Origin: an uncultured Hyphomicrobiales bacterium
Lineage (GTDB): Bacteria > Pseudomonadota > Alphaproteobacteria > Rhizobiales > Beijerinckiaceae
NCBI GenBank assembly: GCA_903889985.1
Contig: CAISZN010000430.1
Location: 1 to 41,798, forward strand
Length of the DNA stretch: 41,798 bases
Reading direction: 5' to 3'
Below the pieces are notes generated by a model that was given only the letters and a program-made list of their open reading frames with translations, made no database searches and was not told the DNA's origin. A program made the position numbers and the translations under genes. Numbering within the stretch: position 1 is the stretch's first letter; every line of letters starts with the position of its first letter. Positions 3,245 through 34,578 of the stretch are shown one piece after another.

Positions 3245-3757
3245 TCAGCCTTTGTACATTGGGGAGAGCTCTGTCTGCGTGAACTCCGAGGCGTTGTAGT
3301 CAAAGAACGGCATATAGGAAAACGCAATCCAGTGGCATTCACTTCCTGGCACGGAGTTGAAGTGCTGATGTTCGACTCCGCCCTTCTTGATGGGGAGAAG
3401 CAGCAGATCGCCAGCTTCCCAATCGACACGCTCTCCATCAACCACCGAATAGCCCGTACCTTCGATCACGTAGATCACCAAACCACCCTGGTGACGATGC
3501 TTCCCAGAATGAGAGATGAGGCTGTGGGTGAAGACACGCCAGTCCTGAAGCGGCGTGTTCTTGTGGATCTCCCCGTTGATGTAATAGAGCAGCTTGCCCT
3601 GCTTGGTGTTGTAATACTCGCGGTCTTCAAGCCGGACGACAACCTGTCCGGTGTTCTGCCGTTCGAGGAATTCCAGGCGGCTACGAATGAAGATGTCATA
3701 GGGCGTCATCGCGCCAGGATCTCGTTCGCGGGTGCGTGTACGTTCGCCTTCAGCCAT
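3245..3757 (-). CDS. Single-domain cupin, metal-competent partner (cluster A)
   Basis: A 170-residue cupin and the last gene of the cluster A operon. Cupin motif 1 is present as H87-R-H89 followed by IYVIEG, although the usual glutamate after HxH is not evident. Motif 2 is seen as LPIKKGGVEHQHFN, with H130/H132 and N134. Three histidines could therefore bind a metal. It is a paralogue of the next cupin upstream (3788-4297); compare GGLVIYVIEGTGYSVVDG with GGQIIFVIEGQGYTVIDG. The start ATG 3757 follows AGGA by 8 bases. Cupins in catabolic clusters are often dioxygenases, isomerases or decarboxylases; which applies here is unknown. The two genes resemble the two halves of the bicupin at 28751. 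Confidence 0.8.
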   Translation of the reverse strand: MAEGERTRTRERDPGAMTPYDIFIRSRLEFLERQNTGQVVVRLEDREYYNTKQGKLLYYINGEIHKNTPLQDWRVFTHSLISHSGKHRHQGGLVIYVIEGTGYSVVDGERVDWEAGDLLLLPIKKGGVEHQHFNSVPGSECHWIAFSYMPFFDYNASEFTQTELSPMYKG

Positions 3758-3787
3758 GGTTGATATCCTAAATATCGCGTTGAATGA

Positions 3788-4297
3788 TCAGGGTTGCGCG
3801 GTCGGCGCGGCTTCGAGCTGTTCAAAGCCGCATCCGCGGTCAACAGTCGTGGCGGCATAGAGGTTTGGCTCGACTACGAGCACGCGGGCCGGCTTGTCAT
3901 CCGAACTGTTGAAGTGCTGGACGATGATGCCCTCCTTCTTCAACGGAAGGTTGAGGACGTCACGATCTTTCCAGGGATGCTTGACGCCATCAATGACCGT
4001 GTAACCCTGCCCTTCAATCACGAAGATGATCTGGCCGCCCTGAAATTGCAGGCGACCGGAACGGCTGCGTGGCGGAATCTCCTGTTCATAGATGGCGAGC
4101 GTAGAAAGCGCGATGTCCTTGATCGCCGGGTGCATGTACCAGCGCATCTGACCCTGCGAGTTGCTTTCAAGTGGCAGGTCGCGACGCCGGACCACCTGCA
4201 CGGATGACGCGCGTTGCGCCCGCTGCTGGTCTCGCAGCTCCATCAGCTCATTCCAGTAATTATGCTGGGCGAGATTTTCCTTGCGGTCGGTGCTCAT
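3788..4297 (-). CDS. Single-domain cupin lacking motif 1 histidines (cluster A)
   Basis: A 169-residue cupin. The start is placed at ATG 4297, five bases after a strong AGGAGGGG site; an upstream in-frame start at 4324 would abut the preceding stop and lacks this site. The fold signature is clear (IIFVIEGQGYTVIDG, then VLNLPLKKEGIIVQHFN). However, where its partner has HRH this protein has L83-Q84-F85, so the HxH metal ligands are gone and only H128 of motif 2 remains. It is probably non-catalytic or structural, perhaps pairing with the cupin at 3245, or it uses no metal. It lies 27 bases after the receptor gene and 30 bases before the partner. Confidence 0.8.
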   Translation of the reverse strand: MSTDRKENLAQHNYWNELMELRDQQRAQRASSVQVVRRRDLPLESNSQGQMRWYMHPAIKDIALSTLAIYEQEIPPRSRSGRLQFQGGQIIFVIEGQGYTVIDGVKHPWKDRDVLNLPLKKEGIIVQHFNSSDDKPARVLVVEPNLYAATTVDRGCGFEQLEAAPTAQP

Positions 4298-4324
4298 GCG
4301 TCCCCTCCTTTCATGGGTCGTCAT

Positions 4325-5350
4325 TCAGTGGAAGAATTTCTTGGCGATGGCGATCTGCTCCGGCGTGGCCTGAAAAGCCTCCGCGACCGATTTCTCGAGC
4401 GCCTGCCAAGTCGCGGGCGTCAGCGCGAGCTGCTGCTTCTCAGCATCGGCGAGGTAGCCAGGATCCTTGATGGTCGCTTCGAAGGCGCGCCGGATGGCAT
4501 CCACGCGCTCGGCCGGAACATTTGGTGGCAGCGCAAGCGGTTGGCCAATCTCGTCGGGGCCAAAGAACAGGTTAAAGACGCCACGCAGGTCTGCGGTCTG
4601 AGCCAGCTCGAAGATGGTCGGCACCGTCGGCAGGTCAGCAATCGGTGAGCGCGTATAGGGCGCGACGACATTGACCTTGCCCTGCGAAATCCAATCCGGA
4701 TGGGACAGCTTCATGAAAGTCCACGGGAAGATGCCGGCTTCCACTTCGCCGCGTTCGAGGGCGAGGATAGCATCGGTGGTTCCCGTGTAACCTGGGATGA
4801 TCTTGAACTTCGTCCCAGCCAACCCATTCATCATCTGCGAGGTAATTTCTGCCTGGCTGAGCGGACCGGTGCTCGCAATCACCGTGTCATGCGTACGCAA
4901 ATCGCCCACGGTCTTGGTCGCCGAAGTGTGCCAAGTGAACAGCGTCGCGGTTGGAGCGACTATTCGACCGACCCAGTTGTATTTGCGGACGTCGTATTTG
5001 ATCTCCGGCATACTGATGACCTGTGCCATGGCAATGTTCGGAATCAGGATTCCCATTGCCGTGCCATCCTGCGGCGCAATGCCATAGAGCCAGTTTCCGG
5101 CAATCATGCCCGATGCGCCAGGCATATTCTGCGGGACGAGTGTTGGTTGGCCCGGAATATGTTTGCCGAGATGTCGCGCGATGAGGCGCCCATAAAGATC
5201 AAAGGAGCCACCCGGCGCGTTGGGAATGATGAGCGCAATGGTCTTTCCCTTGAAAAATTCTGCGACATCCTGCGCCTGGGCTGCGACCGTCACGCTCAAT
5301 GCGGCGAGAGCCAGGAGGATGCCACTCAAGACTCGCACAGGTTGCATCAT
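4325..5350 (-). CDS. Bug/TctC-family periplasmic solute receptor (no. 2)
   Basis: A 341-residue receptor with a clear signal peptide (LLALAALSVTVAAQAQ, cleavage near residue 26). Family features: FFKGKTIALIIPNAPGG, RHLGKHIPGQPT, MPGAS followed by AGNWLYGIAPQDG, and DPGYLADAEKQQ near the C-terminus. GGGAG precedes two adjacent ATG codons (5350 and 5347); the second has the better spacing. It lies within the cluster A operon, 28 bases after the CDC48-type gene and 27 bases before the cupin start. No cognate TctA/TctB is present, so it is either an orphan sensor/receptor or works with a transporter elsewhere. The ligand is unknown. Confidence 0.85.
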   Translation of the reverse strand: MMQPVRVLSGILLALAALSVTVAAQAQDVAEFFKGKTIALIIPNAPGGSFDLYGRLIARHLGKHIPGQPTLVPQNMPGASGMIAGNWLYGIAPQDGTAMGILIPNIAMAQVISMPEIKYDVRKYNWVGRIVAPTATLFTWHTSATKTVGDLRTHDTVIASTGPLSQAEITSQMMNGLAGTKFKIIPGYTGTTDAILALERGEVEAGIFPWTFMKLSHPDWISQGKVNVVAPYTRSPIADLPTVPTIFELAQTADLRGVFNLFFGPDEIGQPLALPPNVPAERVDAIRRAFEATIKDPGYLADAEKQQLALTPATWQALEKSVAEAFQATPEQIAIAKKFFH

Positions 5351-5378
5351 CGTCTCCCTAAAATGACAATGTTCGAAT

Positions 5379-7532
5379 TCAGGACGCTACTGTCAGCCGG
5401 AAGGCTTGCAGCAGTTCTTCGGCCGTCGGCGGAACAGCCTGCGTGAAACCAGTCCGCTTCAGCGCCGCGCGCTTTGCCATGTCACAGGCCTCGCGCAGAT
5501 CAGCTCCCGACTTTCCATTGGTCTTGAGAGCGATTTCCTCGATCGCAGCGGCCAGCGCCGCCGCATGTGGACCGAGGCTCAGCCGCAGGATGTCGTTGCG
5601 TGCGGCCGTGTCCGGCAATCCGACTTCGATATGCGTCCCTAGCCGTCCTGGACGCAGCACCGATGGATCGACGAGGTCAATGCGGTTTGTCGCGCCAATC
5701 ACCACGACCCGCGACAACTGTGCCATGCCGTCCATCTCGGCGAGCAGCTGTCCAACAACGCGCTCGGTGGTCATGGAGCCGTCATATTTGCCGCGGATCG
5801 GCGCAAGCGATTCAAGCTGGTCGAAGAAGATGACAGCAGGCGCGACTTGCCTTGCGATACGGAAGACTTGTCGCACCCCCTCCTCCGATTCACCGAGCCA
5901 TTTGGTGAAGAGTTCAGACCCATTCACTGCGATGAAGTTCACGCCACATTCATTGGCGATGGCCTTGGCGAGCAGCGTCTTGCCGGTGCCCGGAGGCCCA
6001 TAGAGCAGAACGCCCGAATGCGGCGGCAGTCCCGCCTGCATGAGTAGGTGCGGATTGCGCAGGGGTGCTTCAACGGCTTCCTGCAGGCTTTCCTTGACGT
6101 CGGCCAGGCCGCCGATCTGGTCCCAACGAACATCGGGAATCGTGATCAGGGTTTCTCGCAGCGCCGAGGGCCGCGTTTCCCCAAGCGCAGCCTCGAAATC
6201 TTCCGGTTCGATGCGCAAGTCGTCAACATTGATGCGAAAGGCGACGCGGTGGTCGGTCAGCGCACCAGCACCACGTCGCAGGGCGTTGAGGCCAGCGGTT
6301 CGGCACAACTCCATAACATCAGCGCCCAGGAACCCATGGGTTCGCCGCGCCACCTCCGGAAGGAAGGCAGTTCCGGCATCCGACAGAGGCATCTCTCGCG
6401 TATGGATATTGAGGATCTCAAGTCGACCCTCAGCATCCGGCGGGCCGATAAAGATCTCGCGATCGAAGCGGCCTGGACGCCGCAGAGCCGTATCCACGGA
6501 ATCGACACGGTTGGTGGTGCCGATGACGATCACGCTGTCAACACGCGTCAAGCCATCCATCAGCGAAAGAAGCTGTGTGACGGCACGCGTGTCGGCGTGA
6601 GCTCCTGTTTCGCCACGCTTGGGCGCTATGGCATCGAGTTCGTCAATGAAGATGATCGATGGTGCGTGGTGGCTTGCTTCTGAAAACATGCGCCTGAGAT
6701 TGGCTTCCGTCTCGCCCGTATAGGTGCCAACAACGTCGGGGCCGTTGATGTAGTAGAAACGCGCATCGACCTCATTCGCCACGGCCCTCGCCAAATGGGT
6801 CTTGCCGGAGCCCGGCGGCCCGTAAAGGATCAACCCGCGAGGTGCAGTTATGCCAAGCTGGCGATAGACATGCGGAAAGCGCAATGGCAGTTGCACGAGC
6901 TCACGGATGAGCCGGATCTGCTTGGTCAGTCCACCAACATCTTCGTAGGTGATGTCGAAGGCGCCTTCGGGCAGATGGCTGTCGTGGTAATCGAGCGTGA
7001 CTTCCGTTTCGGCAGTAATGACGCCAGCCGATCCCTTCAGGATCTTGGCCTCATAGGTGATGCCCGCACTCGATTTCGGGAACGGGATATAGAGGATACT
7101 GCCGGTGCTGACAGGCGTGTGCGCCTCGATGAGCTTCTGCTTCAGATGGGGGACGAGATCATGCGCCATCGAGACATCTACGGCGGGACGTAAAACAACA
7201 CTTGTCGCAGCTACCTCCGCCGCACGCTCGACTTCGATGGTCTCATTGAGATGAGCCTTCAAGGCCTGTCGTGCGAAGCGATCAAGACGGACGTGTCCAG
7301 CACCTTCGCTGGTCGGGATGGGGGTAGCAAGCCGCGCCAGAAGCGATCGGCCTCGATCGGTCGCGAGGCGCACAAGTGCGCCTTCCTGGACAGCGAGATC
7401 ATGCATCAGTGCCGCGTCAAGACGGATCAATACGGCAAGGCTCCCCGCCTGCTCGCTCGCAAGATGGTCTATCGTAGCATGTGCGTGGCTCGCACCCATG
7501 CCGTGGGAATGACCGATCGTATGGTCAGCCAT
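5379..7532 (-). CDS. CDC48/p97-type double AAA+ ATPase with DQ in D2 Walker B
   Basis: A 717-residue CDC48/VAT-type unfoldase. The start is ATG 7532, four bases after AGGAGAGG; a GTG at 7559 would put that site inside the gene. Order: a His-rich tail (H4, H8, H10, H16, H18, H23), an N-domain to about 190, D1 and D2. D1 has Walker A GPPGSGKT (238-245), Walker B IIFIDE (D297, E298) and arginine fingers R352/R355. D2 has Walker A GPPGTGKT (512-519) and R627/R630, but Walker B reads VIFFDQ (D571, Q572). In p97 the engineered E578Q change at this site blocks D2 hydrolysis. Fusion to a protease or membrane anchor is absent. It sits between the ABC permease and a Bug receptor in a catabolic operon, so I infer remodelling or activation of an operon enzyme. 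Bacterial CDC48 proteins are uncommon. Confidence 0.93.
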   Translation of the reverse strand: MADHTIGHSHGMGASHAHATIDHLASEQAGSLAVLIRLDAALMHDLAVQEGALVRLATDRGRSLLARLATPIPTSEGAGHVRLDRFARQALKAHLNETIEVERAAEVAATSVVLRPAVDVSMAHDLVPHLKQKLIEAHTPVSTGSILYIPFPKSSAGITYEAKILKGSAGVITAETEVTLDYHDSHLPEGAFDITYEDVGGLTKQIRLIRELVQLPLRFPHVYRQLGITAPRGLILYGPPGSGKTHLARAVANEVDARFYYINGPDVVGTYTGETEANLRRMFSEASHHAPSIIFIDELDAIAPKRGETGAHADTRAVTQLLSLMDGLTRVDSVIVIGTTNRVDSVDTALRRPGRFDREIFIGPPDAEGRLEILNIHTREMPLSDAGTAFLPEVARRTHGFLGADVMELCRTAGLNALRRGAGALTDHRVAFRINVDDLRIEPEDFEAALGETRPSALRETLITIPDVRWDQIGGLADVKESLQEAVEAPLRNPHLLMQAGLPPHSGVLLYGPPGTGKTLLAKAIANECGVNFIAVNGSELFTKWLGESEEGVRQVFRIARQVAPAVIFFDQLESLAPIRGKYDGSMTTERVVGQLLAEMDGMAQLSRVVVIGATNRIDLVDPSVLRPGRLGTHIEVGLPDTAARNDILRLSLGPHAAALAAAIEEIALKTNGKSGADLREACDMAKRAALKRTGFTQAVPPTAEELLQAFRLTVAS

Positions 7533-7571
7533 CAAACCTCTCCTGTGCAACGCGGTCACCGCGTCTTATTG

Positions 7572-8351
7572 TTAGCGATTGGAACGCGCCGGTTCGTCGT
7601 CGCGCCACTTACCCATGTGTCGCTCGATTCGGCGCATGCACGCGTTGATGGCCATGGCCATCAGGGCAAGCGCCGAGATCAAGGCGAAAAGCTTTTGTGG
7701 TTGGAACGTCTCGGTAAACTGTCGCGTATAATGGCCTATACCGCCGGACGAAACATAGAGTTCACCAAGCAGCACGCCCAGCAGGCAGGCCGTGACCGAC
7801 AGGCGCATGCCCGTAAACAAGCTGGGTACGAGCCACGGCAGGATGATGCGCCTGAAGGTCAGCCAGCGGTTGGCTCCCATGGAACGTGCACTTTTGACCA
7901 AAACCGGGTCTATCCCCTGTACGCCGGACACCACGGAAATCACGATGGGAAATACCCCATGGCTGATGCCAAAGGCGACCTTCGAAGCGGGCCCCGAGCC
8001 AAAGTACAGCACGAACAGTGGCAGGATAGTGATCTGCGGGATGGCGTAGATCAGCAGGACGAGCGGGTAGAAGGTCTGATAGGTGAAGCCACCCGCCGCA
8101 ACCCCAAGCCCTAGTAACAGGCCCACGAGCAACGAAACAGCGAAGGCGATGACGAGTTCCCAGCCCGTCGTGCCGAGCGCCGAAAGGACAGCGGGATCTG
8201 CAAAGATCCGGCTGCCGGACGAGACAACCGTTGATAAGGGGCTGACAAAGAGATCACTGCCAAATCGGCCCAGCACTTCCCACAGGCAAAGAAGGCCGGA
8301 GATCAGCAACAGCCTCGCCTGGAGCGGCGACAGGATGGTTGAAGGCGTCAT
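7572..8351 (-). CDS. ABC importer permease, SsuC/TauC type (second)
   Basis: A 259-residue inner-membrane permease with about six hydrophobic segments. The cytoplasmic EAA loop is visible (SARSMGANRWLTFRRIILPW), where it docks on the ATPase. The start ATG 8351 overlaps the upstream permease stop as ATGA, which suggests translational coupling; an upstream in-frame ATG at 8366 is less likely. Family members import sulfonates, taurine, nitrate, pyrimidine precursors or similar small nitrogen or sulfur compounds. Paired with the paralogous permease just upstream it would form a heterodimer. The C-terminus is charged (RRIERHMGKWRDDEPARSNR). It is followed after 39 bases by the CDC48-type gene. Confidence 0.9.
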   Translation of the reverse strand: MTPSTILSPLQARLLLISGLLCLWEVLGRFGSDLFVSPLSTVVSSGSRIFADPAVLSALGTTGWELVIAFAVSLLVGLLLGLGVAAGGFTYQTFYPLVLLIYAIPQITILPLFVLYFGSGPASKVAFGISHGVFPIVISVVSGVQGIDPVLVKSARSMGANRWLTFRRIILPWLVPSLFTGMRLSVTACLLGVLLGELYVSSGGIGHYTRQFTETFQPQKLFALISALALMAMAINACMRRIERHMGKWRDDEPARSNR

Positions 8352-9136
8352 GAGCGCGGGCTCCAATGTCGCTCGAGCATAGAGAGGAAGGCATTCATCA
8401 GCACGGACATGAGGATGACGAAGATCACATAGGCGAACATCTTCGCCGTCTCCATGCCTTCCGCGTACCAGACAATCCGATGGCCGAGGCCTTCAAGGGA
8501 GGCAATGGTTTCACCGCCGATGATCGCAAGGAAGGTCAGCATGAAGCCGAGCCGCAGTCCACCGAGGATGCTCGGCAGGGCTGCAGGTAGCAGGATGCGC
8601 TTCACTGTCTGTGCAGGCGTCGCACCCATGGAGCCAGCAAGCCGCAGGTAGACGGGATCCACCTTGGCGAATCCCTGGATCGTACTCAGGCAAATGGGGA
8701 AGAAACCGAACAGCACCCCATGGGCAATCTTGGATTCAGGACCGATGCCGAAGAACAGCACCGACAGCGGATAAAAGATGATGATTGGGATCGCATAAAG
8801 CGCGGAGAAAATCGGCTCGAACACCCGCACTCGATAGCTGGTGCGGCTGCACAGGTACCCAGTCGCGATCCCCAGCACCGCAGCCAACGGACAGGCCAAC
8901 GCATATTCAAACAATGTGACCTGGATATCCTCCAGCGCCTCGCCATTGGCGAGAATAGTCCAGAAGGTCTGAAAAACCCGCTCGGGCTTCGGCAGGAAGA
9001 AGCTGCTGACAAGCCCGTTCACTGTGACCCCATGCCAAAGAACCAGGAAGCCAAGCAGGAACAGGACGCGTGTTGCGCTGCTCCAGGCAGCCTGCCGGCC
9101 GCGCAACGGTCGAAGGAGGCTTCCCGGCGCACTCAT
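8348..9136 (-). CDS. ABC importer permease, SsuC/TauC type (first)
   Basis: A 262-residue inner-membrane permease. After a basic N-terminus come multiple hydrophobic spans and the EAA loop AGSMGATPAQTVKRILLP. It overlaps the ATPase gene upstream (ATGA at 9133-9136) and the second permease downstream (8348-8351), so the three genes are translationally coupled. It belongs to the binding-protein-dependent transport family that serves NMT1/TauA-type receptors such as the one at 9927. Two different permease genes imply a heterodimeric channel. Confidence 0.9.
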   Translation of the reverse strand: MSAPGSLLRPLRGRQAAWSSATRVLFLLGFLVLWHGVTVNGLVSSFFLPKPERVFQTFWTILANGEALEDIQVTLFEYALACPLAAVLGIATGYLCSRTSYRVRVFEPIFSALYAIPIIIFYPLSVLFFGIGPESKIAHGVLFGFFPICLSTIQGFAKVDPVYLRLAGSMGATPAQTVKRILLPAALPSILGGLRLGFMLTFLAIIGGETIASLEGLGHRIVWYAEGMETAKMFAYVIFVILMSVLMNAFLSMLERHWSPRS

Positions 9137-9930
9137 GGGCGCAGGCCTGGCATGTCTTCACGCATGGTGGCCAGCACCTCTTCTCGCAGCAACTCGTAAA
9201 GCTTGTTGCGCAGGGTCGCAAAGCGCTCAGACACCATGAAGGCGGGGTCCCGCGGATGCGTCTCATTGACGTCGAGAACTGCCTTAATGCGGCCCGGGCG
9301 CGAGGTGAAGACGAAGATGCGATCCGACAGGAAGACGGCTTCCGCAAGGCTATGGGTGACAAGAACGATGGTTTTTCTTTCGCGGGCGAGCAAGCGCGAC
9401 AGGTCCTCGCCGAAGACCATACGCGTTTGTTCGTCGAGAGCTGCAAAAGGTTCGTCCATGAGCAGAACTTCGGTTTCCAGGCTCAGCGCCCGCGCCAGCG
9501 CCACGCGCTGGCGCATGCCGCCTGACAGCTGTTGCGGATAGGCATGGGCAAATTTCATCAAGCCGACCGACGTCAAAGCTTTGACCGCGCGTTCCTCGCG
9601 CATCTGATGGTCGACACCCTGGAATTCGAGGCCAACCTTGATGTTGTCCAGCACCGTGGCCCAAGGCAACAGCGCACTCTCTTGAAACACGTAGGAAATC
9701 TTGCGGGGTAACGGGCCTTGAATTTTAGACCCGGCGACGGACACCTGTCCTTCAGAAGGCTCTGTCATTCCACCGATGATATTGAGCAATGTGCTCTTGC
9801 CGCAACCGCTAGGCCCGATAAATGAGACCATCTCGCCGACTTGTATCTGCATATCGATGCGATCCAGCGCGAGAAGACCCTCGCCCTTGGCTCCGAAGCG
9901 ATGCTGAACGCCCTCGACCTCGATCATCAT
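9133..9930 (-). CDS. ABC importer ATPase, SsuB/TauB type
   Basis: A 265-residue ATPase with intact motifs: Walker A GPSGCGKST, Q-loop FQESALLPW, signature LSGGMRQRVALARAL, Walker B VLLMDEPF and H-loop VTHS. SsuB/TauB-type proteins energise import of small organic N- or S-compounds. The start ATG 9930 overlaps the receptor stop (ATGA), and its own stop overlaps the permease start. It is cytoplasmic, bound to the two permeases. It should be functional, unlike the decayed ATPase at 36.8-37.9 kb. Confidence 0.95.
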   Translation of the reverse strand: MMIEVEGVQHRFGAKGEGLLALDRIDMQIQVGEMVSFIGPSGCGKSTLLNIIGGMTEPSEGQVSVAGSKIQGPLPRKISYVFQESALLPWATVLDNIKVGLEFQGVDHQMREERAVKALTSVGLMKFAHAYPQQLSGGMRQRVALARALSLETEVLLMDEPFAALDEQTRMVFGEDLSRLLARERKTIVLVTHSLAEAVFLSDRIFVFTSRPGRIKAVLDVNETHPRDPAFMVSERFATLRNKLYELLREEVLATMREDMPGLRP

Positions 9931-10895
9931 TTCTTCGCCGGTAAAAATTCTTCCGTGTAGAGCGTCTTGGGGTCTGGCTTCTTGTCCAGAATTTCCAACT
10001 CTATGAAGGAATCGACAAGCACCGATAGCGCCTTGTCATTGAAGCGCAAGTCGCGCGACATCATCGGCATGACCTTGTCGAACTCTTCTTCCTGTATTTT
10101 CAGAGGTAAATCGGTGGTCTTGTGCGCGAGCTCGATCGCTTCCTGCCGATGCGAAAACATATATTCCACGGTCTCCTGCCAACCGGCGAGAAAACGGCGC
10201 ACGACATCGGGCTGTTCCTTGATGACTTTGTTCGTGGCAAAGATCAGATGGGTGTGGAAGTCCTTGATCTCGTCCCCAAAGTGCAAGAGAACCTTGCCCT
10301 CGTTGCGGTCCGCCAGCATGTAGCCGACTGAAGCCGACATGATGAAGCCATCCACCGCTCCGCTCTTGAGGCCGGCGATCTGCCCTGAAATCGTCCCCAT
10401 TGGGACCGTGCGGATCGCATCAGGCGCCCATCCGTGGCGTCGCGCAAGCGCGCGTGCAAGCCAATAGGTCAGCGAACCATTGGTGGTGATTCCGATCTTG
10501 CGGCCCTTCAAATCCTCAGGGGTTTTCACGACGGAGTTCTGACTGACGATGAGCCCCATGCTGAGGGGTTCATTGGCAATGACGCCGACAGTCTTGGCTG
10601 GCACGTCCTTGGCGATGAAACCCATCGCTGGGCCCGAGCCGAAACCGAATTCGATTTCATTGGCGATCAGGCCCTGCTGCATCTTGCCGTCGCCGGCATA
10701 TTGCAGGACCGTGATCTCAATTCCGTGCTTCGCCCAGATGCCCGTCGCCGTCCCGATCTCCGCCGGTGTGAACGCGAGAGCGTTGGACGCAGTCTTGCCG
10801 ACGCGTACGAGATCGAGCGCCTGCGCTGCCCCGCTCTCCATGACAAATGCCAAGATGACTCCAGCGAGCCAAGCCATTTGACCCCGATTGATCAT
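9927..10895 (-). CDS. ABC importer substrate-binding protein, NMT1/TauA-like
   Basis: A 322-residue periplasmic receptor. The start is ATG 10895, eight bases after AAGGAG; the GTG at 10904 sits on top of that site and is rejected. A signal peptide (MAWLAGVILAFVMESGAAQA) ends near residue 27. NMT1/THI5-like features: VRVGKTASNALAFTPAEIGTATG with the KHGIEIT strand, EFGFGSGPAMG, DLKGRKIGITTNGS, and a C-terminal helix with LYTEEFLPAKK. It is the first gene of the four-gene importer and lies 5 bases after the M24-like gene. The importer is therefore embedded in the catabolic operon and probably brings in its substrate. The ligand is unknown. Confidence 0.9.
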   Translation of the reverse strand: MINRGQMAWLAGVILAFVMESGAAQALDLVRVGKTASNALAFTPAEIGTATGIWAKHGIEITVLQYAGDGKMQQGLIANEIEFGFGSGPAMGFIAKDVPAKTVGVIANEPLSMGLIVSQNSVVKTPEDLKGRKIGITTNGSLTYWLARALARRHGWAPDAIRTVPMGTISGQIAGLKSGAVDGFIMSASVGYMLADRNEGKVLLHFGDEIKDFHTHLIFATNKVIKEQPDVVRRFLAGWQETVEYMFSHRQEAIELAHKTTDLPLKIQEEEFDKVMPMMSRDLRFNDKALSVLVDSFIELEILDKKPDPKTLYTEEFLPAKK

Positions 10896-10900
10896 GGTCG

Positions 10901-12016: not shown

Positions 12017-12025
12017 GGGTAATCC

Positions 12026-13147: not shown

Positions 13148-13167
13148 CCGATCCTCCCTTGGCGCTA

Positions 13168-14910: not shown

Positions 14911-14918
14911 GGGGTGCC

Positions 14919-19068: not shown

Positions 19069-19084
19069 CCTGCAAGGACTTGCC

Positions 19085-22455: not shown

Positions 22456-22497
22456 GCAAGATCCCCCCTTTTTATGACTTCCGTGACGCAGGCTCGC

Positions 22498-22526: not shown

Positions 22527-22529
22527 CCG
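22507..22529. promoter_or_regulatory. Perfect 6-bp dyad in the divergent receptor 4 / HyuA region
   Basis: CGGTTG (22507-22512), 11 bases and CAACCG (22524-22529) are perfect inverted arms in the 169-base divergent region. The spacing of about two half-sites on one helix face suits a dimeric regulator. The outer bases GGT and ACC also occur in the dyad upstream of cluster A, but there at a different spacing. Confidence 0.35.
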
Positions 22530-22624
22530 CGGCACCAGTACGACATGTGGCAGAAAGCCTCTGGAATCAGCAGGAGCGACTGACTACACTGTCCGGACTC
22601 AGGGTCACACGGCCCGAAGAAAAC

Positions 22625-27581: not shown

Positions 27582-27584
27582 GCC

Positions 27585-28733
27585 ATGCGTACCATGCACT
27601 CCGTTGTCAAGCGCGGCGCACTTTATTGGGATCGAGAGCTAAGCCCTGAAGAGGTTTATCCGCGTAGGATCGCTGCAATCCAAAGCCGCATGGCAGCCGC
27701 CGGCGACGATGCCTGGATCCTTGTCGGTGATGTGATCCACCATGGACCCGTGGTTTTTGCGACGAATTTCATGCCACGGGTACGTTCGGCGCTCGTCTAT
27801 ATTCCGGCCACGGGAGCTGCGACCTTGTTCGCCAACATCAGCCTGCGCGACGTACCAGCCGCACGAACGATCACCAACATCGAGGATATCCGGCCCTTCA
27901 GTCGGTTGCCAAAGGAACTTTCGACATTCCTCGGGGAAGCCCTGCCGCAGGGTGGCACCGTCGGCCTGTGCGGCGTGGATGAGTGCCTGCCCGCCAATGA
28001 CTGGTTCTCCATCGAGCAAGCCCTGCCAATGATCAGCTGGGTGGCACGCGACGGTATCATCTCGGCGATGCGTGCACGCAAAGAGGCTTTCGAGATTGAG
28101 GCTGTCCGACGCTCGACAGCACTGGCGGATCTGGCGCTCGATGCCGCACAGAACCTCATCAAACCTGGCACCTCGATGCGCGTCGTAATTGCTGATCTCG
28201 ATAGACAGGTTCGCAGTCGGGGGGCTGAAGATGTGCGCTTCCTGATTGCAAGTGGACCGCAGGCTGGATCGGCACTGAGACCAGCCGATGACCGCCGGCT
28301 GCAGGATGGCGATACGGTGATCATCTATTGCGCCGTGCAAAACCAACGTTACTGGGGAGAAGCTGCGCAAACTTTTTGCCTGGGCGCCCCATCCACGAAG
28401 CTGCAGGACCTCCATGCGACGGCAATATCCGCACTCGACACCATGGCAACCAAGATCAAGCCCGGTGTTGCGGCAGGTGCAGTTGCGGACTCAATCCACG
28501 GAAGCCAGGCATCAGCCACACAATATGGCTTGGGCAATGCCATCGGCCTTGATGTGCAGGAAGGCGTCGTCATCGAAGCGGGTGCCAGCGAGGTCTTGGA
28601 ACCTGACACGGTGATTGCTTTGCGCATCATCCTGCATGAGGACGATCAAGGCGTTGCGGTCACACGCACACTGCACGTTGGGGCCACGGACAGCACCTTG
28701 CTCGCAGGGCGCGATCATCTAGCGAGCGTCTGA
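27585..28733 (+). CDS. Degenerate M24-fold protein, beta partner (cluster B)
   Basis: A 382-residue M24-fold protein, homologous to 10901-12016 (compare FATNFMPRVRSALVYIPATG with FFTNFIPRMRWAMALFPAKG). The catalytic features are even more reduced: the aspartate strand reads YCAVQNQRYWGEAAQTF, and the conserved histidine is N318 (GLGNAIGL). No metal ligand of the family remains, so it is probably a non-catalytic subunit stabilising the alpha partner or binding substrate. It starts 3 bases after the alpha stop, with GAGGG just ahead. Keeping a full-length open frame argues against decay. Confidence 0.8.
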   Translation: MRTMHSVVKRGALYWDRELSPEEVYPRRIAAIQSRMAAAGDDAWILVGDVIHHGPVVFATNFMPRVRSALVYIPATGAATLFANISLRDVPAARTITNIEDIRPFSRLPKELSTFLGEALPQGGTVGLCGVDECLPANDWFSIEQALPMISWVARDGIISAMRARKEAFEIEAVRRSTALADLALDAAQNLIKPGTSMRVVIADLDRQVRSRGAEDVRFLIASGPQAGSALRPADDRRLQDGDTVIIYCAVQNQRYWGEAAQTFCLGAPSTKLQDLHATAISALDTMATKIKPGVAAGAVADSIHGSQASATQYGLGNAIGLDVQEGVVIEAGASEVLEPDTVIALRIILHEDDQGVAVTRTLHVGATDSTLLAGRDHLASV

Positions 28734-28750
28734 CACGACTGGGCAACTCC

Positions 28751-29845
28751 ATGAACGACATTGCACCGCCAGCCGGCAAATTCCTGATAGACCCCTACCT
28801 TGAATGGACGAAGGGTGAAGGCATCCCCATCCACGAGGACTTCGGCCTTGACCTGCAAAAGGTGGAACTCAGCCAATGGACGCGCCTCGGCGTGCCTGGA
28901 TGCATAGCTCATGTGAAGGGCCGTGGTGATTTCATGACGATATTCGTCATCGAGATTCCACCTGGCGGCAAGACTTTGCCAATGCGCCACCTCTATGAAG
29001 ACGCTGTCATTGTCATCAGCGGCAACGGCAGTACCAGCATCGAAGGGCACGATGGAACGAAGCACAGTTTTGAATGGGGACCTCGATCCGTCTTCGCGCC
29101 GCCACTGAATCTACGCCATCAATTCTTCAATGCCTCAGGTCAGCATCCGGCCCGGCTCGCCATCTGCTGCAACATGCCTGCGGTCTATAATCTTTTCCGC
29201 AGCGAACAATTCGTCTTCGAAAACACATCGACCTTCCCGGACCGCGAAGGTGACCCCAGCCACTTCAAGGGTGAAGGCAGTTTTATTCCGGTCCGTCCCG
29301 GCAAGCACATGTGGGAGACGAACTTCGTACCCGACGCCTTGAACCTCGAATTGAAGACCTGGGCAGCGCGCGGCGCCAATGCGTCCCATATCCAGCTCAT
29401 CCTCGCCGACAGCATCCTGCACGCGCACCTGTCGGAAATGCCCGTGGGCACATACAAGAAGTCCCACCGACATGGTCCCGATTTGCACGTCTTCTGCCTG
29501 TCTGGCGAAGGCTACTCGCTGTTCTGGTACGAAGGCGACAAGGACTTCGTGAGGATCAACTGGACCGAAGGCTGGGTCTTCGCGCCGCCGGACATGATGT
29601 ATCACCAGCATTTCAATACGAGCGCGAACAAGACCCGTTATATCGCAATTGGCCATGGCAGCGTGCGATATCCGTTTACCCAGAACATGTGGAAGGTCTA
29701 TAGAGGCGTCGACGTCGACGTAAAAAGTGGTGGGAACCAGATCGAATATCGGGATCAGGACCCGCGCGTGCACCAGATCTTCCTGGACGAAATGAGGAAG
29801 AAAGGAATTGTCCCTCGTATGGATTCCTATTTTAACGCAGATTAG
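28751..29845 (+). CDS. Bicupin (two-domain cupin), cluster B
   Basis: A 364-residue protein with two cupin domains, like gentisate dioxygenase or oxalate decarboxylase in architecture. Domain 1 (about 60-145) has H80 and E83 in PMRHLYEDAVIVISGNG, with H123 and N127 in motif 2, so HxH is reduced to one histidine. Domain 2 (about 215-305) has H239-R-H241 and FAPPDMMYHQHFN with H285/H287 and looks metal-competent. It occupies the place of the two single cupins of cluster A, one metal-competent and one not. It starts 17 bases after the M24 beta gene. The reaction is unknown; ring cleavage or decarboxylation would fit the context. Confidence 0.85.
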   Translation: MNDIAPPAGKFLIDPYLEWTKGEGIPIHEDFGLDLQKVELSQWTRLGVPGCIAHVKGRGDFMTIFVIEIPPGGKTLPMRHLYEDAVIVISGNGSTSIEGHDGTKHSFEWGPRSVFAPPLNLRHQFFNASGQHPARLAICCNMPAVYNLFRSEQFVFENTSTFPDREGDPSHFKGEGSFIPVRPGKHMWETNFVPDALNLELKTWAARGANASHIQLILADSILHAHLSEMPVGTYKKSHRHGPDLHVFCLSGEGYSLFWYEGDKDFVRINWTEGWVFAPPDMMYHQHFNTSANKTRYIAIGHGSVRYPFTQNMWKVYRGVDVDVKSGGNQIEYRDQDPRVHQIFLDEMRKKGIVPRMDSYFNAD

Positions 29846-29858
29846 ATGGAGGCTGGTC

Positions 29859-30887
29859 GTGCGCATCATGTCCCTGCCCTGCATCGCAATCGCTTTCGGA
29901 ATAGCTGCTTCGCAGGCAGAGGCAGAACCACCGGCCGACTTCTATCGTGGAAAGACCGTAGAAATCACCGTAGGGACTGGTGCTGGTGGTGGCTATGATG
30001 CCAATGCACGGCTGGTAGCCCGGCATTTGGGGCGATTTATTCCCGGGAACCCTAAGATCATCGTGTCGAACGTTCCAGGCGGCGGTGGCATCACGGCCGC
30101 CAACAGGCTGTTCAATGTCTCGCCTCGCGATGGTCTTGCAATCGGAACCTTCAGCAATGCACTGTTGACTATGCCCATGCTCAACGCCGGCGCGACGCGG
30201 TTTCAAGCGGAGCAGTTTACATGGATCGGCAGCGTATCGCATGAGGATGGCGTCTGCATCACGTCAAAGACTTCGGGCGTGACGACCTGGTCCGATCTTC
30301 AAAGCAAGGACGTCATCGTCGGCACGACCGCGCCGGGCACCACGACGCATCTCTATGCGGCGCTGTTGCGCAATCTTTTTTCAGCACACTTCCGCCTCGT
30401 CTCAGGTTATCCCGACGGCAGCTCAATCGTGATCGCCTTCGAGCGCGGCGAAGTTCAGGCTTTATGCCAAACTTATTCAAGCCTCAACGTTCTGCATCCC
30501 GACTGGCTTCAGGAAGGAAAAGTAAATCCGGTCGTGGTAATGGGTCTTCATCGCATCGGCGCGCTGGACGGGATTCCTTCTCTCATGGAATTCACCCACT
30601 CGGACAGGGAACGAGACATCGTGCGGATCTTGCTCGCACCAACTGTCGCTGGCCGCCCCTTTGCGGCACCCCCTGGGGTTCCGACTGACCGCGCCGAGGC
30701 CCTGCAGCGGGCCTTCCTGCAAATGAGCACGGATACAGAGTTTCTTGCGGATGCTGCTCACGCCCGCATCGAAGTGCAGGCGATGCGTGGCGATGATATC
30801 GCTACCCTGCTTCAGATGATTTCAAAGACTGACACAAAGGTGGTGGGCGATGTCCGCACAATCCTGTCATCGGATCCCATCAAATGA
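29859..30887 (+). CDS. Bug/TctC-family periplasmic solute receptor (no. 5)
   Basis: A 342-residue receptor. The start is GTG 29859, six bases after GGAGG; a further upstream TTG at 29808 lies inside the bicupin gene. The signal peptide MRIMSLPCIAIAFGIAASQA ends near residue 22. Family blocks: FYRGKTVEITVGTGAGGGYD, RHLGRFIPGNPK, VPGGGG followed by AANRLFNVSPRDG, and DTEFLADAAHAR. It lies in the cluster B operon after the bicupin (13 bases). There is no cognate membrane protein in the window. Confidence 0.87.
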   Translation: MRIMSLPCIAIAFGIAASQAEAEPPADFYRGKTVEITVGTGAGGGYDANARLVARHLGRFIPGNPKIIVSNVPGGGGITAANRLFNVSPRDGLAIGTFSNALLTMPMLNAGATRFQAEQFTWIGSVSHEDGVCITSKTSGVTTWSDLQSKDVIVGTTAPGTTTHLYAALLRNLFSAHFRLVSGYPDGSSIVIAFERGEVQALCQTYSSLNVLHPDWLQEGKVNPVVVMGLHRIGALDGIPSLMEFTHSDRERDIVRILLAPTVAGRPFAAPPGVPTDRAEALQRAFLQMSTDTEFLADAAHARIEVQAMRGDDIATLLQMISKTDTKVVGDVRTILSSDPIK

Positions 30888-30942
30888 CAGCACGCCATCA
30901 AGCGCCCATAGCCGCACCAATTAACGATAGATCGAGGGAAAG

Positions 30943-32307
30943 ATGACATCGCTGACTCAGGATATCGGCACCTTCATTTCCGATCTGCGGTACGACCATC
31001 TTCCGGCGCTCGCCTCTCCTATCATCCGCAATGGCCTGACGGATTTCGTTGCGACGGTTCTGCTCGGGCAGGACGATGAGGTCACATCCTGCGTGCGCAA
31101 GACCCTGGTCGGTCGCAACGAGGAACCAGAAGCGCGTTTGCTTCTTTCCGCCATACGCAAGAGCGGCATCTCAGCAGCTCTCGTAAATGGCACTGCGAGC
31201 CATTCGCAGGATTATGACGATGTCGGGCTTGTGGGAATTCAGCCAACGCACCCATCGGCGTCGATTGCACCGGCCATCTTTGCCGAGGCTGAAACTTTGA
31301 AGCGCGACGGGCGCGCCATGGTTTGCGCCTATGCTGCAGCTTTCGAAGTCTGGGGGGAACTTGCATCACGAGATCCCGACCCGGTCCATGTCAAGGGCTG
31401 GCATCCAACTGGAACCTTCGGAGCCATCGCAGCCGCGGCAGCCGCGGCAAGCCTGCATGGCTTATCCGCCAATAAGGCTGCTCATGCGGTCTCCCTCGCC
31501 GCATCCATGTCAGCTGGCGTCATTGCCAACTTTGGCTCAATGGCCAAGCCCTATCATGCTGGCAGGGCCGCACAGAGCGGTGTGATTGCTGCACGCCTCG
31601 CCGCTGCCGGGATGACTGCATCGGAGGACGCGCTCGAATCCAACCTCGGTTTCCTTGCGGCCATTTCACCGAAGGGGCGTGTGGACCGAGAACGACCGGC
31701 GGGCTTTTCCGGCCGCTGGTTCCTCGAAAGCCATGGGCTTGGGTTCAAGCTCTTCCCCATGTGCTATGGCGCGCACCGGGCGCTCGATGGACTCTTCACC
31801 CTGTTAGCCAGCACGCCGTTCAAGGCAGACGACATCGAGCGCATCGAGGTCGAGGCCAACCGGGCACAATATTCCAATCTCGTCCACACGGATCCGCAGA
31901 ATGTGCTTGATGCAAAGTTCAGTATGGAATTCGCCATGGCGGCCGCTATCGTCGCCGGTCGCTGTACCCGAGCGGAATTTGTACCCGCATTCATCCATCG
32001 TCATGATGTGCGCTCGGTCATGGCAAAGACCCATCGGGTCTACATCGATACCCAAGGGCATCGGGGCGACGGCCTGATCGTCTATCTCAAGGATGGACGC
32101 CGCCTGGAGCAGCGCTTCACCTTTCCGCTCGGACACGCGCGCCGCCCCGCGACATTGCAGGCCTTTTGGACAAAGTTTGAGGATTGCGTCTCCGGCACCT
32201 TCACATCAACTGACGCACGCCATCTGTTTGATCAGTTGCAGGACATCGAGTCACTTTCCTGTGTCTCCGACCTACCGGTCAGCAGGGGGCCTTCAGACAA
32301 GGACTGA
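30943..32307 (+). CDS. MmgE/PrpD family protein, copy 2
   Basis: A 454-residue family member with the canonical signature: ALVNGTASHSQDYDD at about residues 84-98 and GWHPTGTFGAIAAAAAAA at about 153-170. The MmgE/PrpD group dehydrates, epimerises or decarboxylates di- and tricarboxylates (2-methylcitrate, cis-aconitate, iminodisuccinate). It is more canonical than copy 1 at 20093. ATG 30943 follows GAGGGAAAG. It lies 55 bases after receptor 5 and 78 bases before receptor 6. A role late in the pathway, on an opened dicarboxylate, is inference. Confidence 0.88.
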   Translation: MTSLTQDIGTFISDLRYDHLPALASPIIRNGLTDFVATVLLGQDDEVTSCVRKTLVGRNEEPEARLLLSAIRKSGISAALVNGTASHSQDYDDVGLVGIQPTHPSASIAPAIFAEAETLKRDGRAMVCAYAAAFEVWGELASRDPDPVHVKGWHPTGTFGAIAAAAAAASLHGLSANKAAHAVSLAASMSAGVIANFGSMAKPYHAGRAAQSGVIAARLAAAGMTASEDALESNLGFLAAISPKGRVDRERPAGFSGRWFLESHGLGFKLFPMCYGAHRALDGLFTLLASTPFKADDIERIEVEANRAQYSNLVHTDPQNVLDAKFSMEFAMAAAIVAGRCTRAEFVPAFIHRHDVRSVMAKTHRVYIDTQGHRGDGLIVYLKDGRRLEQRFTFPLGHARRPATLQAFWTKFEDCVSGTFTSTDARHLFDQLQDIESLSCVSDLPVSRGPSDKD

Positions 32308-32385
32308 CCAGTGCTTCTTGAACTCGTACTGCCCGCTCTGATACACTTGCAACAAGATAAACCCGGCCGGTTCAGGGAGGACCGT

Positions 32386-33495
32386 ATGTCGAAGGCCTGC
32401 CTGCTGACGGCACTCGGCTGTCTTGCATTGTCATCCCCCGCAATGGCGCAGTCGACGGACGTTGCTGACCTGTTCCGCGGCAAGACCGTGACCTTCATGA
32501 TCAACTTCACGCCCGGCGGCTCGACCGATTTCGAAGGGCGGGTGTTGGCGCGCCATCTCGGCAATCACATTCCCGGCAAACCTGCGGTGGTGGTGCAGAA
32601 CATGGGTGGTGCTGGCGGCTCCATCGGGACGAATTATCTCGGGCAAGTTGCGCGTCCAGATGGATTGACGCTCGGTTACCTGACTGCCTCGGTGGGCAAG
32701 CAGGCGCTCGGTGAATCCGACCTGAAGGTCGATCTGCGTGGACTCGAGTTTCTCGGCAACGTCCCCGACGTCAATGTCACCTATATGCGAACGGACGTGA
32801 AGCCAGGCGTTGCAGCTCCCGCCGACATCATGAAGACGAAGGGATTCTGGATCGGCGGGCTGACGCCTGACAGTCCCAAGGATCTGGCAGAGCGGCTACA
32901 GCTCGACATTCTGGGGGTCGAGTATAAATATCTGTCAGGGTATAAGGGGTCTCCGGAAGCGCGCCTCGCCCTGCAACAGAACGAGATCCAGTTCTATAAT
33001 GAGGGGCTGGCGTCATATCGCGCTGCGATAGAGCCGGGCATTGTCAAATCCGGCATGGTGCTGCCGCTCTGGTATGATCCTCTGGACGAAGGGGGACGCC
33101 TCGTTGCTGCGCCGACGGCAGCGGGAATTCCTGCACGGCCTTTCCATGAGTTTTATGCGAGCCTGAAGCAAAGCAGCTCCCTGCCAAACGATCTCAGATG
33201 GCAGGCCTATCTGCGCATCAACGAGTTGAGCACAAGTTTTCTGCGCATCCTGATGATGCCGCCGAAGTCGCCACCAGCTGCAGTTGCCGCAATCCAGCAA
33301 GCCCTCGTGGAAACCTTTGCCGACCCCGCCTATCAGGCCGATGCAAAGCAAACCTTCAACAATATCCCAGAATTCAAGACCGGAGCAGAGCGCAAGAAAG
33401 CACTTCTCCAGGTCCTTGCACCACAACCGGGCGTGCAGGAATTCCTCACAGACTATATTGCCAAAGGTTACCAGTCGGTCGGCGACAAGAAATAG
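32386..33495 (+). CDS. Bug/TctC-family periplasmic solute receptor (no. 6)
   Basis: A 369-residue receptor. The start is ATG 32386, five bases after GGGAGG; an upstream in-frame start at 32311 would add 25 residues that hide the signal peptide (LTALGCLALSSPAMAQ). Family blocks: LFRGKTVTFMINFTPGGSTD, RHLGNHIPGKPA, MGGAGG followed by TNYLGQVARPDG, and DPAYQADAKQTF. It is the most divergent and longest of the six receptors in the window; the usual APRDG has become ARPDG. It lies 18 bases before the dioxygenase gene. Confidence 0.87.
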   Translation: MSKACLLTALGCLALSSPAMAQSTDVADLFRGKTVTFMINFTPGGSTDFEGRVLARHLGNHIPGKPAVVVQNMGGAGGSIGTNYLGQVARPDGLTLGYLTASVGKQALGESDLKVDLRGLEFLGNVPDVNVTYMRTDVKPGVAAPADIMKTKGFWIGGLTPDSPKDLAERLQLDILGVEYKYLSGYKGSPEARLALQQNEIQFYNEGLASYRAAIEPGIVKSGMVLPLWYDPLDEGGRLVAAPTAAGIPARPFHEFYASLKQSSSLPNDLRWQAYLRINELSTSFLRILMMPPKSPPAAVAAIQQALVETFADPAYQADAKQTFNNIPEFKTGAERKKALLQVLAPQPGVQEFLTDYIAKGYQSVGDKK

Positions 33496-33513
33496 TCCCC
33501 CCGCTCCCAAAGA

Positions 33514-34578
33514 ATGGATGAAGACATGGTTGGCGTTTATGAACATCCAGCGGACTGGCGCGGAACGGACCTGGCGAAACGCGAGGACTGGATCTACCGT
33601 TTCACCAAGGCGGAAGTTTCAGAAATTCTAGCAGCCCTGTCCCGAGCACGCCGGCTGGGCAAGACACTAGAGACCCTGACGCGGGAGGATTTTCCCCTGC
33701 CGAATGTCAGCCGACGCCTCGAAGAATCGCGGCAGGTTCTGGAAGAAGGTGTTGGCATTTTTCAGTTCCGCGGGTTTGACGTGGAAGGCGTCAGCAAAGA
33801 CGATCTACGAATGATCTACTGGGGCCTTGGGAAGCATATGGGTACGGTCGTCTCCCAGAGCTCCGATGGTGATTTGCTAGGAGACGTTCGCAACATTGGC
33901 GTCGACATCATGAGCCCGCAGGGACGCGGCTATAAAACGAACCAGAAGCTTTCGTTTCATACGGATAGCTGCGATGTCGTGGGCCTTTTTGTCATGCGCG
34001 TTGCAAAAGAGGGCGGACTGAGCCTAATCGCCAGTTCCGTCGCCATTCACAACGAGATTGCTCGCAAGCGGCCCGACCTCCTTGAGGTTCTCTACCAGCC
34101 TTTTCCATGGAGCTGGCAAACGCAGGAGGCAAAAGGCGATCGGCCCTGGTATTTCCAGCCGATCTTTTCTATGCGCGGCGACAAGATTTCATGTCGATAC
34201 ATTCGCGGCCATATTCGCAACAGCCAGCTCTATGAGGATGCGCCACGGCTGACTGCTGTGCAGATCGAAGCAATGGACTACTATGACTCACTCTCCGCAA
34301 GCGGAGACTTCCACCTGTCTTTCATGTTCGAGCCAGGTGACATCCAGTTCGTAAACAATCACGTCTGCCTTCATTCGCGCACGTCCTATGTTGATTGGCC
34401 AGAGCCAGACCGCTACCGGCATTTGTTGCGCATGTGGCTGTCCGTGCCAAATTCCCGCCCGCTTTCGGACAGTATGGCGACCATTTATCAAGATCGCTCA
34501 CCGGGCGCCGTAAGAGGTGGCTTCCCGACCCGCACTGGGAAATACATCTATGAATCCGTGAATGCATTATCCGATTAG
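33514..34578 (+). CDS. TauD/TfdA-like Fe(II)/2-oxoglutarate dioxygenase
   Basis: A 354-residue non-haem iron oxygenase and the last gene of cluster B. The facial triad is visible: H149-T-D151 (SFHTDSCD) and H287 (FVNNHVCLHSRTSY). The 2-oxoglutarate-binding arginine is R306 (YRHLLRMWLS). TauD/TfdA relatives hydroxylate substrates such as taurine, aryloxyacetates, carnitine precursors or clavaminate. It probably oxidises a pathway compound, perhaps demethylating or N/O-dealkylating it. It starts at ATG 33514, 18 bases after receptor 6; MVGVYEHP four residues later is an alternative start. It converges on the amidohydrolase at 34709. Confidence 0.9.
   Translation: MDEDMVGVYEHPADWRGTDLAKREDWIYRFTKAEVSEILAALSRARRLGKTLETLTREDFPLPNVSRRLEESRQVLEEGVGIFQFRGFDVEGVSKDDLRMIYWGLGKHMGTVVSQSSDGDLLGDVRNIGVDIMSPQGRGYKTNQKLSFHTDSCDVVGLFVMRVAKEGGLSLIASSVAIHNEIARKRPDLLEVLYQPFPWSWQTQEAKGDRPWYFQPIFSMRGDKISCRYIRGHIRNSQLYEDAPRLTAVQIEAMDYYDSLSASGDFHLSFMFEPGDIQFVNNHVCLHSRTSYVDWPEPDRYRHLLRMWLSVPNSRPLSDSMATIYQDRSPGAVRGGFPTRTGKYIYESVNALSD

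Follow-up and report, generated by a model that had tools for sequence, protein, structure and literature searches.

An apparently undescribed, conserved gene module of HyuAB-type and M24-type proteins in an alphaproteobacterial genus

The window analysed here is a stretch of 41,798 nucleotides (positions 1 to 41,798) of contig CAISZN010000430.1 (C430; assembly GCA_903889985.1, 4.78 Mb in 695 contigs, estimated contamination 8.55%) of an uncultured Hyphomicrobiales bacterium, and it carries two copies of a module encoding a HyuA-type ATP-binding subunit, a HyuB-type subunit and two unequal M24-type proteins, M24α and M24β. This appears to be a real and strongly conserved module that is assembled from known families, has two altered active sites and is as yet undescribed. 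Its identification rests on computed synteny, on the correlated divergence of the four proteins, on residue changes in HyuB and M24α, and on a reciprocal pattern of domain conservation within the M24 pair. Judging from these sequence features, we tentatively favour, at somewhat under an even chance, a two-enzyme block for the breakdown of some nitrogen-containing compound, in which ATP-dependent ring opening by HyuAB would precede the action of an M24αβ heterodimer whose active site has been rebuilt.

Gene order and correlated divergence of the module

Module 1 runs along the minus strand through hyuA1 (14919..16940), hyuB1 (13168..14922), m24a1 (12026..13147) and m24b1 (10901..12016), and module 2 along the plus strand through hyuA2 (22625..24697), hyuB2 (24694..26454), m24a2 (26451..27581) and m24b2 (27585..28733). 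Gene families were assigned by Pfam on the open reading frames (ORFs) of the window, with an NCBIfam scan that covered the module 1 subunits for HyuAB; in module 1 the Pfam matches are Hydantoinase_A/Hydant_A_N for HyuA, Hydantoinase_B for HyuB, Peptidase_M24 for M24α and Creatinase_N alone for the degenerate M24β. These assignments confirm, for both modules, the families and the order that an earlier note on this DNA had read as a twice-occurring, oppositely oriented set. The 4-base overlaps and short gaps described there at the junctions are also present, but the gaps span 3–20 bases rather than 8–20, that between m24a2 and m24b2 being 3. Chance is excluded as the source of the order, since the identical order is found again in other genomes.

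The distribution of the module was followed with two kinds of search. A genome scan with the single protein M24β2, which reaches close relatives only, returned three loci among the named genomes, two of them module loci: a Beijerinckiaceae metagenome-assembled genome (MAG; locus L009) has module 2 in order, flanked by amh0 (an amidohydrolase gene) together with tctC3 at one end and by an ATP-binding cassette (ABC) transporter at the other, and the module locus of a Rhizobiales MAG (L010) ends just before its M24α. The third locus (L011) holds a distant M24 of 26% identity outside a module. An M24α profile built from nine sequences was then applied to three overlapping samples, at family, order and phylum level, with at most five first-look candidates scored per genome, so that the counts are lower bounds. 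At E ≤ 1e-45 the profile identified at least 58 places in at least 34 of 397 family genomes, the positive genomes comprising 30 of the 46 listed as the same genus and 4 from three other genera. In the order sample of 397 genomes, with the same threshold and number of candidates, it matched the bacterium's own genome only, and in the phylum sample of 398 genomes, for which the threshold was 1e-25, the highest-scoring match outside the own genome reached just 138 bits. Sampling covered the bacterium's own phylum plus a plasmid collection, in which M24α occurs in three Neorhizobium galegae records at ~62% identity to the L046 type; two N. galegae plasmids carry the module and the third record carries M24α.

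All 58 M24α places of the family search, the window included, were compared with the window genes. M24β lies immediately downstream of M24α on the same strand at every one of them, and 40 places, spread over 29 of the 34 genomes, have the collinear arrangement HyuA-HyuB-M24α-M24β. A further 6 have same-strand HyuA and HyuB no more than 10 kb away but differently ordered or spaced, and 8 are cut by contig ends, where part of HyuB is still visible in L066, L077, L105 and L107, and part of HyuA in L104. The four core genes thus recur together elsewhere, as the earlier note had anticipated. As a control, the best 11 of 41 weaker M24 matches from the phylum sample (108–138 bits) were inspected; HyuAB is absent from the vicinity of 10, and the remaining region (L114) has a different type of HyuAB, whose HyuB carries Asp at the metal position discussed below.

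The four proteins also diverge together. Across 41 complete modules their pairwise distances correlate with r of 0.945–0.987 (Mantel test), and 0 of 999 permutations were as high for each of the six protein pairs. The test started from 56 M24α entries, made up of 53 of the 58 places, the double entries L018 and L035, and L123 of N. galegae, and the 41 are those in which all four proteins were long enough; L079 and L107–L110 fell under the length or score limit. Three main subtypes and a single outlier are distinguished: subtype 1 (6 members) includes window module 2, subtype 2 (12 members) includes window module 1 and subtype 3 (22 members) includes N. galegae. Mean identity between subtypes is 47–58% for HyuA/HyuB, 27–35% for M24α and 18–25% for M24β; the order of divergence is common to the four genes and the rates differ.

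The two window copies reflect this history. The similar identities across genes that would follow from duplication as a unit are not seen, the values being 55% for HyuA, 57% for HyuB, 38% for M24α and 29% for M24β. With identities this uneven, and with separate related modules for each copy in other genomes, a recent block duplication is rejected. The two copies do have matching relatives gene by gene, in line with the distance correlations: relatives of both occur in genomes G634 (on one contig), G703 (on one contig, ~21 kb apart) and G718 (on separate contigs). The divergent twin orientation is not conserved, the two types converging in G634 and running in the same direction in G703. The existence of parallel paralogous modules suggests different substrates. 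The eight subtype 3 loci inspected have a nearby amidohydrolase 76–77% identical to amh0 (the L073 match covers 48 aa only), while their HyuA is just 45–49% identical to hyuA2, which would fit a common later step supplied by differing front ends.

A mobile or selfish block, whose genes travel together without a common pathway, could be read from the patchy spread of the module over 30 of 46 same-genus genomes and the N. galegae plasmids. We consider this highly improbable: gene order and subtype-specific co-divergence have been kept even though identities fell to ~18–58% between subtypes, the window genes show operon-like overlaps, and a LysR regulator and transporters are linked to them.

Two of the N. 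galegae records extend the picture. The annotation of the N. galegae VafX2 plasmid (L122) lists LysR, HyuA, HyuB, M24 and aminopeptidase-P proteins, an ABC transporter and an amidohydrolase, and the unannotated record of N. galegae HAMBI 540 (L123) contains, in order, LysR, HyuA, HyuB, M24α, M24β, an MmgE-like match, an ABC transporter and an amidohydrolase. The VafX2 annotation (L122, 12922–16807) divides HyuB and the two M24 genes into pieces, unlike in HAMBI 540, where they are long single frames. We also note that the source genome itself has an M24αβ pair at the end of contig C72 (L043) and a cut HyuA-HyuB at the end of C190 (L139), which may be halves of a fourth module.

Altered positions in HyuB and in the M24 pair

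The phosphate and adenosine motifs of HyuA (D-x-GGT...D, D-x-GGT and PGP positions) are invariant in all 45 aligned HyuAs, 43 of them from the family genomes and the window and 2 from N. galegae. The nearest NCBIfam model of HyuA1 is the caprolactamase alpha subunit CapA (497 bits, below the cut-off of 1000), and HyuB1 scores 237 bits against CapB, likewise short of the caprolactamase equivalog cut-off (1000 bits). In the available text of the caprolactamase report, Asp41, His99, Asp102 and His124 are the metal residues of CapB, the last three are called fully conserved among the enzymes compared, and an Asp102Ala mutant is inactive (PMC8453981). The module HyuBs keep the other three positions (D44, H104 and H129 in hyuB2; the D44 equivalent is unreadable in L077, which is cut, and in L110, which is broken). 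Wherever the equivalent of Asp102 can be read in a module HyuB, it is Asn, as part of a GQHLNN motif; this includes hyuB1, hyuB2 and all 47 module rows of the tree. Asp occupies this position in all four solved HyuB relatives with alignments shown. With three of the four metal ligands retained, the module HyuB is classed here as a variant rather than as a caprolactamase or hydantoinase.

Of the 57 HyuBs in the tree, the 50 sequences with GQHLNN lie on one side of a branch with support 96/92, although deep placements are uncertain because of several long branches. The tree omits the duplicates L008, L009 and L012, the broken L110, L122, and the cut L066, L105 and L107. The 50 comprise 47 module HyuBs and 3 from HyuA-less loci of the source genome, namely L136 (5027–6736, minus), L137 (5328–7133, plus) and L138 (2181–3860, minus), where no HyuA was detected at E 1e-4 on the contig stretches examined and where Bug receptors and proteins resembling acyl-CoA synthetase and PEP mutase are among those encoded nearby. 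In six further HyuBs of the source genome, on contigs C124, C196, C75, C556, C45 and C432, the residue equivalent to Asp102 is Asp or His, and no M24α or M24β was found on the contig stretches examined. A DNA pattern for GQHLNN gave 1 match (G203) among 248 other phylum genomes; it was dismissed as a chance pattern, there being no HyuB or module gene in the surrounding region (L140).

HyuA and HyuB share a superfamily with acetone and acetophenone carboxylases, and it is conceivable that HyuAB is an ATP-dependent carboxylase of this type whose carboxylated product is cleaved by M24αβ, a reading to which weaker matches to acetophenone carboxylase subunits and the linked ACMSD-like amidohydrolases lend some weight. 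We regard it as unlikely, as NCBIfam favours caprolactamase for module 1 (CapA 497 versus ApcC 262 bits, CapB 237 versus ApcD 100 bits) and the gene set has a two-subunit rather than a multi-subunit build.

The second altered site lies in M24α. Aligned with the prolidase 1pv9, in which the residues D,D,H,E,E are the ligands of the dinuclear metal centre, M24α reads E229, Q240, H308, H337 and G351 at these positions. The set E,Q,H,H,G is present in 58/58 aligned M24α sequences (57 of the 58 places, the cut L079 being omitted, plus N. galegae L123), so that four of the five ligand positions are replaced throughout; C242, R243 and T244 are conserved as well, C242 being invariant in the family. 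Among 8 control M24s, 3 read D,D,H,E,E, 5 have other sets and none has E,Q,H,H,G. These replacements rule out the usual dinuclear centre, and M24α could hold one metal on E229, H308 and H337, or none.

The best solved sequence matches of M24α are Xaa-Pro dipeptidases, with 142.7 bits to prolidase 1pv9 against 56.8 to creatinase 1chm and 55 to the ectoine hydrolase DoeA. A true peptidase acting on peptides or Xaa-Pro dipeptides, with HyuAB handling 5-oxoproline or cyclic dipeptides derived from peptides, would agree with this ranking and with the 5-oxoprolinases counted among HyuAB relatives in the available text of PMC8453981; given the four replaced metal-ligand positions in 58/58 M24α, it seems quite unlikely. 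Equally, M24α is not supported as a relative of creatinase or DoeA (57 and 55 bits, versus 143 for prolidase). This ranking bears on a strict creatinine- or N-methylhydantoin-type pathway, in which HyuAB would have N-methylhydantoinase or hydantoinase activity and M24αβ would serve as creatinase or as N-carbamoyl-amino-acid hydrolase. Among solved structures, HyuB2 does match an N-methylhydantoinase best (279 bits), and creatine/creatinine degradation clusters are drawn with both hydantoinase and creatinase genes in the available part of PMC8864220. Nevertheless, M24α is nearer to prolidases, the HyuB metal site differs from that of the solved N-methylhydantoinase, and no creatininase, N-carbamoylsarcosine amidase or sarcosine oxidase occurs among the Pfam-scanned window ORFs; we judge such a pathway decidedly improbable.

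M24β is conserved in a different manner. No Pfam Peptidase_M24 match was obtained for m24b1 at E up to 0.001, and just G11, R28 and W257 are kept at ≥95% in the M24β alignment (57 of the 58 places, L108 being omitted, plus L123). Mean pairwise identity of M24β is 0.341 in the N part and 0.264 in the C part, a relation that is reversed in M24α, with 0.318 in the N half and 0.472 in the catalytic half. Both M24 models match prolidases in Foldseek with probability 1.00 and have the pita-bread fold with a creatinase-type N-domain; query template-modelling scores of the top ten are 0.66–0.77 for M24α and 0.50–0.55, with a root-mean-square deviation of ~10–11, for M24β. In the M24 fold the N-terminal domain of one subunit reaches over the active site of its partner. 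From the adjacency of the genes and the reciprocal domain conservation we propose that M24α and M24β may form an unequal heterodimer.

Further M24 genes were encountered in loci L047–L053 of other family genomes, which contain tandem M24 pairs without HyuAB and with ABC-ATPase matches nearby; one M24 from L053 has non-standard metal positions.

Genes surrounding the modules

Within 10 kb of the 58 M24α genes, both window modules being counted, window-gene matches comprise ABC ATPases at 32 (some of low identity), amidohydrolases at 32 (24% identity upward), LysR at 28, Bug receptors at 26, MmgE/PrpD at 20, the bicupin at 10, TauD at 7, each single cupin at 5 and the CDC48-like protein at 3. 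Cupins, MmgE/PrpD proteins and Bug receptors are accessories, and the cupin was rejected as a core member because it lies close to a minority of modules, contrary to its inclusion in the conserved set by the earlier note. Cupins are present downstream of both copies, as stated there, but they do not form a matched pair. Directly after m24b2 lies one two-cupin-like protein of 364 aa (28751..29845, plus; 91% identical in L009), whereas module 1 has two single cupins of 170 and 178 aa, cupin A (3245..3757, minus) and cupin B (3788..4324, minus; a weak Cupin_2 match of 19.2 bits versus a cut-off of 27.2, and 40% identical to cupin A over 98 aa), which are located ~6.6–7.7 kb downstream of m24b1.

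The intervening minus-strand genes include a complete NMT1-type ABC transporter that had been overlooked, consisting of an NMT1/THI5-type substrate-binding protein (9927..10904), an ATPase (9133..9930) and two permeases (8348..9136 and 7572..8366). They are followed by a CDC48-like tandem AAA+ ATPase (5379..7559; NCBIfam CDC48 669 bits, below the cut-off of 803) and a Bug/TctC receptor (4325..5350). The CDC48-like protein, a presumed unfoldase inside the putative catabolic operon of module 1, is kept at 61–62% identity beside the related modules L078, L080 and L093. Beyond the cupins stands amh0 (2112..3140, plus), an Amidohydro_2 protein of the ACMSD-like decarboxylase group that is 81% identical in L009, there beside module 2.

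Between the two modules, a LysR regulator (17053..17952, plus) is divergent from hyuA1 and is followed by a Bug/TctC receptor (18049..19068, plus), the Amidohydro_2 protein amh1 (19052..20107, plus), MmgE/PrpD 1 (20093..21406, minus) and, upstream of module 2, a further Bug/TctC receptor (21418..22455, minus; 82% identical in L009). After the module 2 core, the two-cupin-like protein is succeeded on the plus strand by a Bug/TctC receptor (29808..30887, Pfam match below cut-off), MmgE/PrpD 2 (30943..32307; closest solved relative iminodisuccinate epimerase), another Bug/TctC receptor (32311..33495, below cut-off) and a TauD-type 2-oxoglutarate dioxygenase (33514..34578; 85% identical in L009). 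A third Amidohydro_2 protein, amh2 (34709..35758, minus), is of unsure module membership. The reported duplication of amidohydrolase and MmgE/PrpD genes stands for the former, amh0 and amh1 (two of the three amidohydrolases) being 58% identical, but BLASTP found no match between the two MmgE/PrpD proteins at E 1e-3, and these are thus not a recent duplicate.

Near the window end, the ATPase and permease frames of another ABC transporter (37025–39301, minus) appear interrupted or frame-shifted, which points to a decayed operon or an assembly error, and a 135-aa Lys/Ala-rich histone H1-like (HC2) protein is encoded at 40758–41165 (minus).

A putative two-step pathway and known systems

We suggest the following course. 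The substrate would enter via the NMT1-type ABC transporter, Bug-receptor systems or both, and HyuA and HyuB would use HyuA-bound ATP for the ring opening of a cyclic amide, imide or ureide. As in caprolactamase, this would take place at the metal site of HyuB, which here has Asn instead of the normally conserved Asp. M24αβ may then cut a C–N bond of the opened product, as creatinase does after creatinine opening; M24α would carry the rebuilt active site (E229, Q240, C242, R243, H308 and H337) in its pita-bread fold, and M24β, its own active site lost, would mainly supply its N-terminal domain to M24α. Products would presumably pass to accessory enzymes that differ between modules (ACMSD-like amidohydrolase, MmgE/PrpD, TauD and cupins). 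Among these accessories are an MmgE/PrpD protein resembling iminodisuccinate epimerase and cis-aconitate decarboxylase, the ACMSD-like amidohydrolase and weak cupin matches; together, the transporter and accessory families suggest small nitrogen-containing acids or heterocycles as putative substrates.

Several observations weigh against this proposal. At 4 of the 58 places the M24αβ pair has no same-strand HyuAB within 10 kb; these are L092, the second pairs of L086 and L087, which adjoin a complete module on the opposite strand, and the pair of L100, where the contig extends just ~5 kb on each side of M24αβ. Conversely, the three related HyuBs of the source genome (L136–L138) stand without HyuA and M24. 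The pairing of HyuAB with M24αβ is consequently not obligatory, and since the two are separable, two enzymes of one pathway are likelier than a single four-subunit complex; of the alternatives that the earlier note had left side by side, the conserved unit is thus most likely one pathway and a four-protein complex is unlikely. Correlated distances are expected for any block inherited together, and E229, H308 and H337 could still bind one metal. The M24 models, moreover, derive from four-sequence alignments (predicted local distance difference test 77 for M24α and 71 for M24β), with low confidence around residues 298–328 in both and also near 1–20, 61–66 and 87–106 in M24β.

With these points taken into account, we lean, just short of evenly balanced, towards an undescribed system in which an Asp-to-Asn branch of HyuAB may act in sequence with an M24αβ enzyme–pseudoenzyme pair. 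The active site of this pair would be new, possibly with a single metal in a 2-His-1-Glu centre or else with an invariant Cys and no metal, and the system would have duplicated and diversified within one alphaproteobacterial genus for several different nitrogen-containing ring compounds. The HyuB Asp-to-Asn change and the E,Q,H,H,G site of M24α both look new. No named pathway with the full set, the absence of which had also been remarked upon earlier, and no description of the gene set turned up in the searches made of open-licence papers, supplements excluded. HyuAB-type proteins commonly carry the label hydantoinase and M24-fold proteins that of Xaa-Pro or M24 peptidase, the N. galegae record being an example. 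Both labels are doubtful for the whole linked set, which can be recognized by GQHLNN in HyuB and by E..P, Q.CRT, RGHG and HPN in M24α. The full-length core frames in the cultured plant symbiont N. galegae HAMBI 540 make the pathway testable there. If true, the proposal would supplement ATP-dependent ring opening with a second step and provide an example, from bacteria, of M24 proteins paired unequally.

Among known systems, prolidase (Xaa-Pro dipeptidase) is closest to M24α in sequence and fold, but has D,D,H,E,E where M24α has E,Q,H,H,G. A precedent for unequal pairing may be C. elegans PID-5, whose aminopeptidase-P-related domain reportedly pairs with the active APP-1; like the proposed M24β it would be an M24-type pseudoenzyme partnering a relative, albeit in eukaryotic RNA silencing rather than in a bacterial catabolic operon. 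The ectoine hydrolase DoeA/EutD is a homomeric single-gene enzyme. It has the M24 fold, hydrolyses a small N-heterocycle and is a structural match to both models (PDB 6twj/6twk/6yo9), yet it is a weak sequence match to M24α (55 bits); its catabolic role is described in the available text of PMC5924519. Caprolactamase CapAB and the ATP-dependent lactamases share with the module the two-subunit HyuA/HyuB build, the HyuA ATP motifs and three of the four HyuB metal positions (PMC8453981, available text). The module differs in the Asn at CapB Asp102, in scores far below the NCBIfam cut-offs and in its M24 pair, an M24 partner not being mentioned in the available text on CapAB. The creatinine clusters, in turn, are distinguished from the module by their transporters, by a creatininase and sarcosine oxidase that have no counterpart among the scanned window ORFs, and by active-site residues other than those of the two unequal M24 subunits. 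Nevertheless, creatine and creatinine catabolism, which in the available part of PMC8864220 combines a hydantoinase with creatinase, a C–N hydrolase of the M24 fold, would by analogy provide the nearest known logic for the module.

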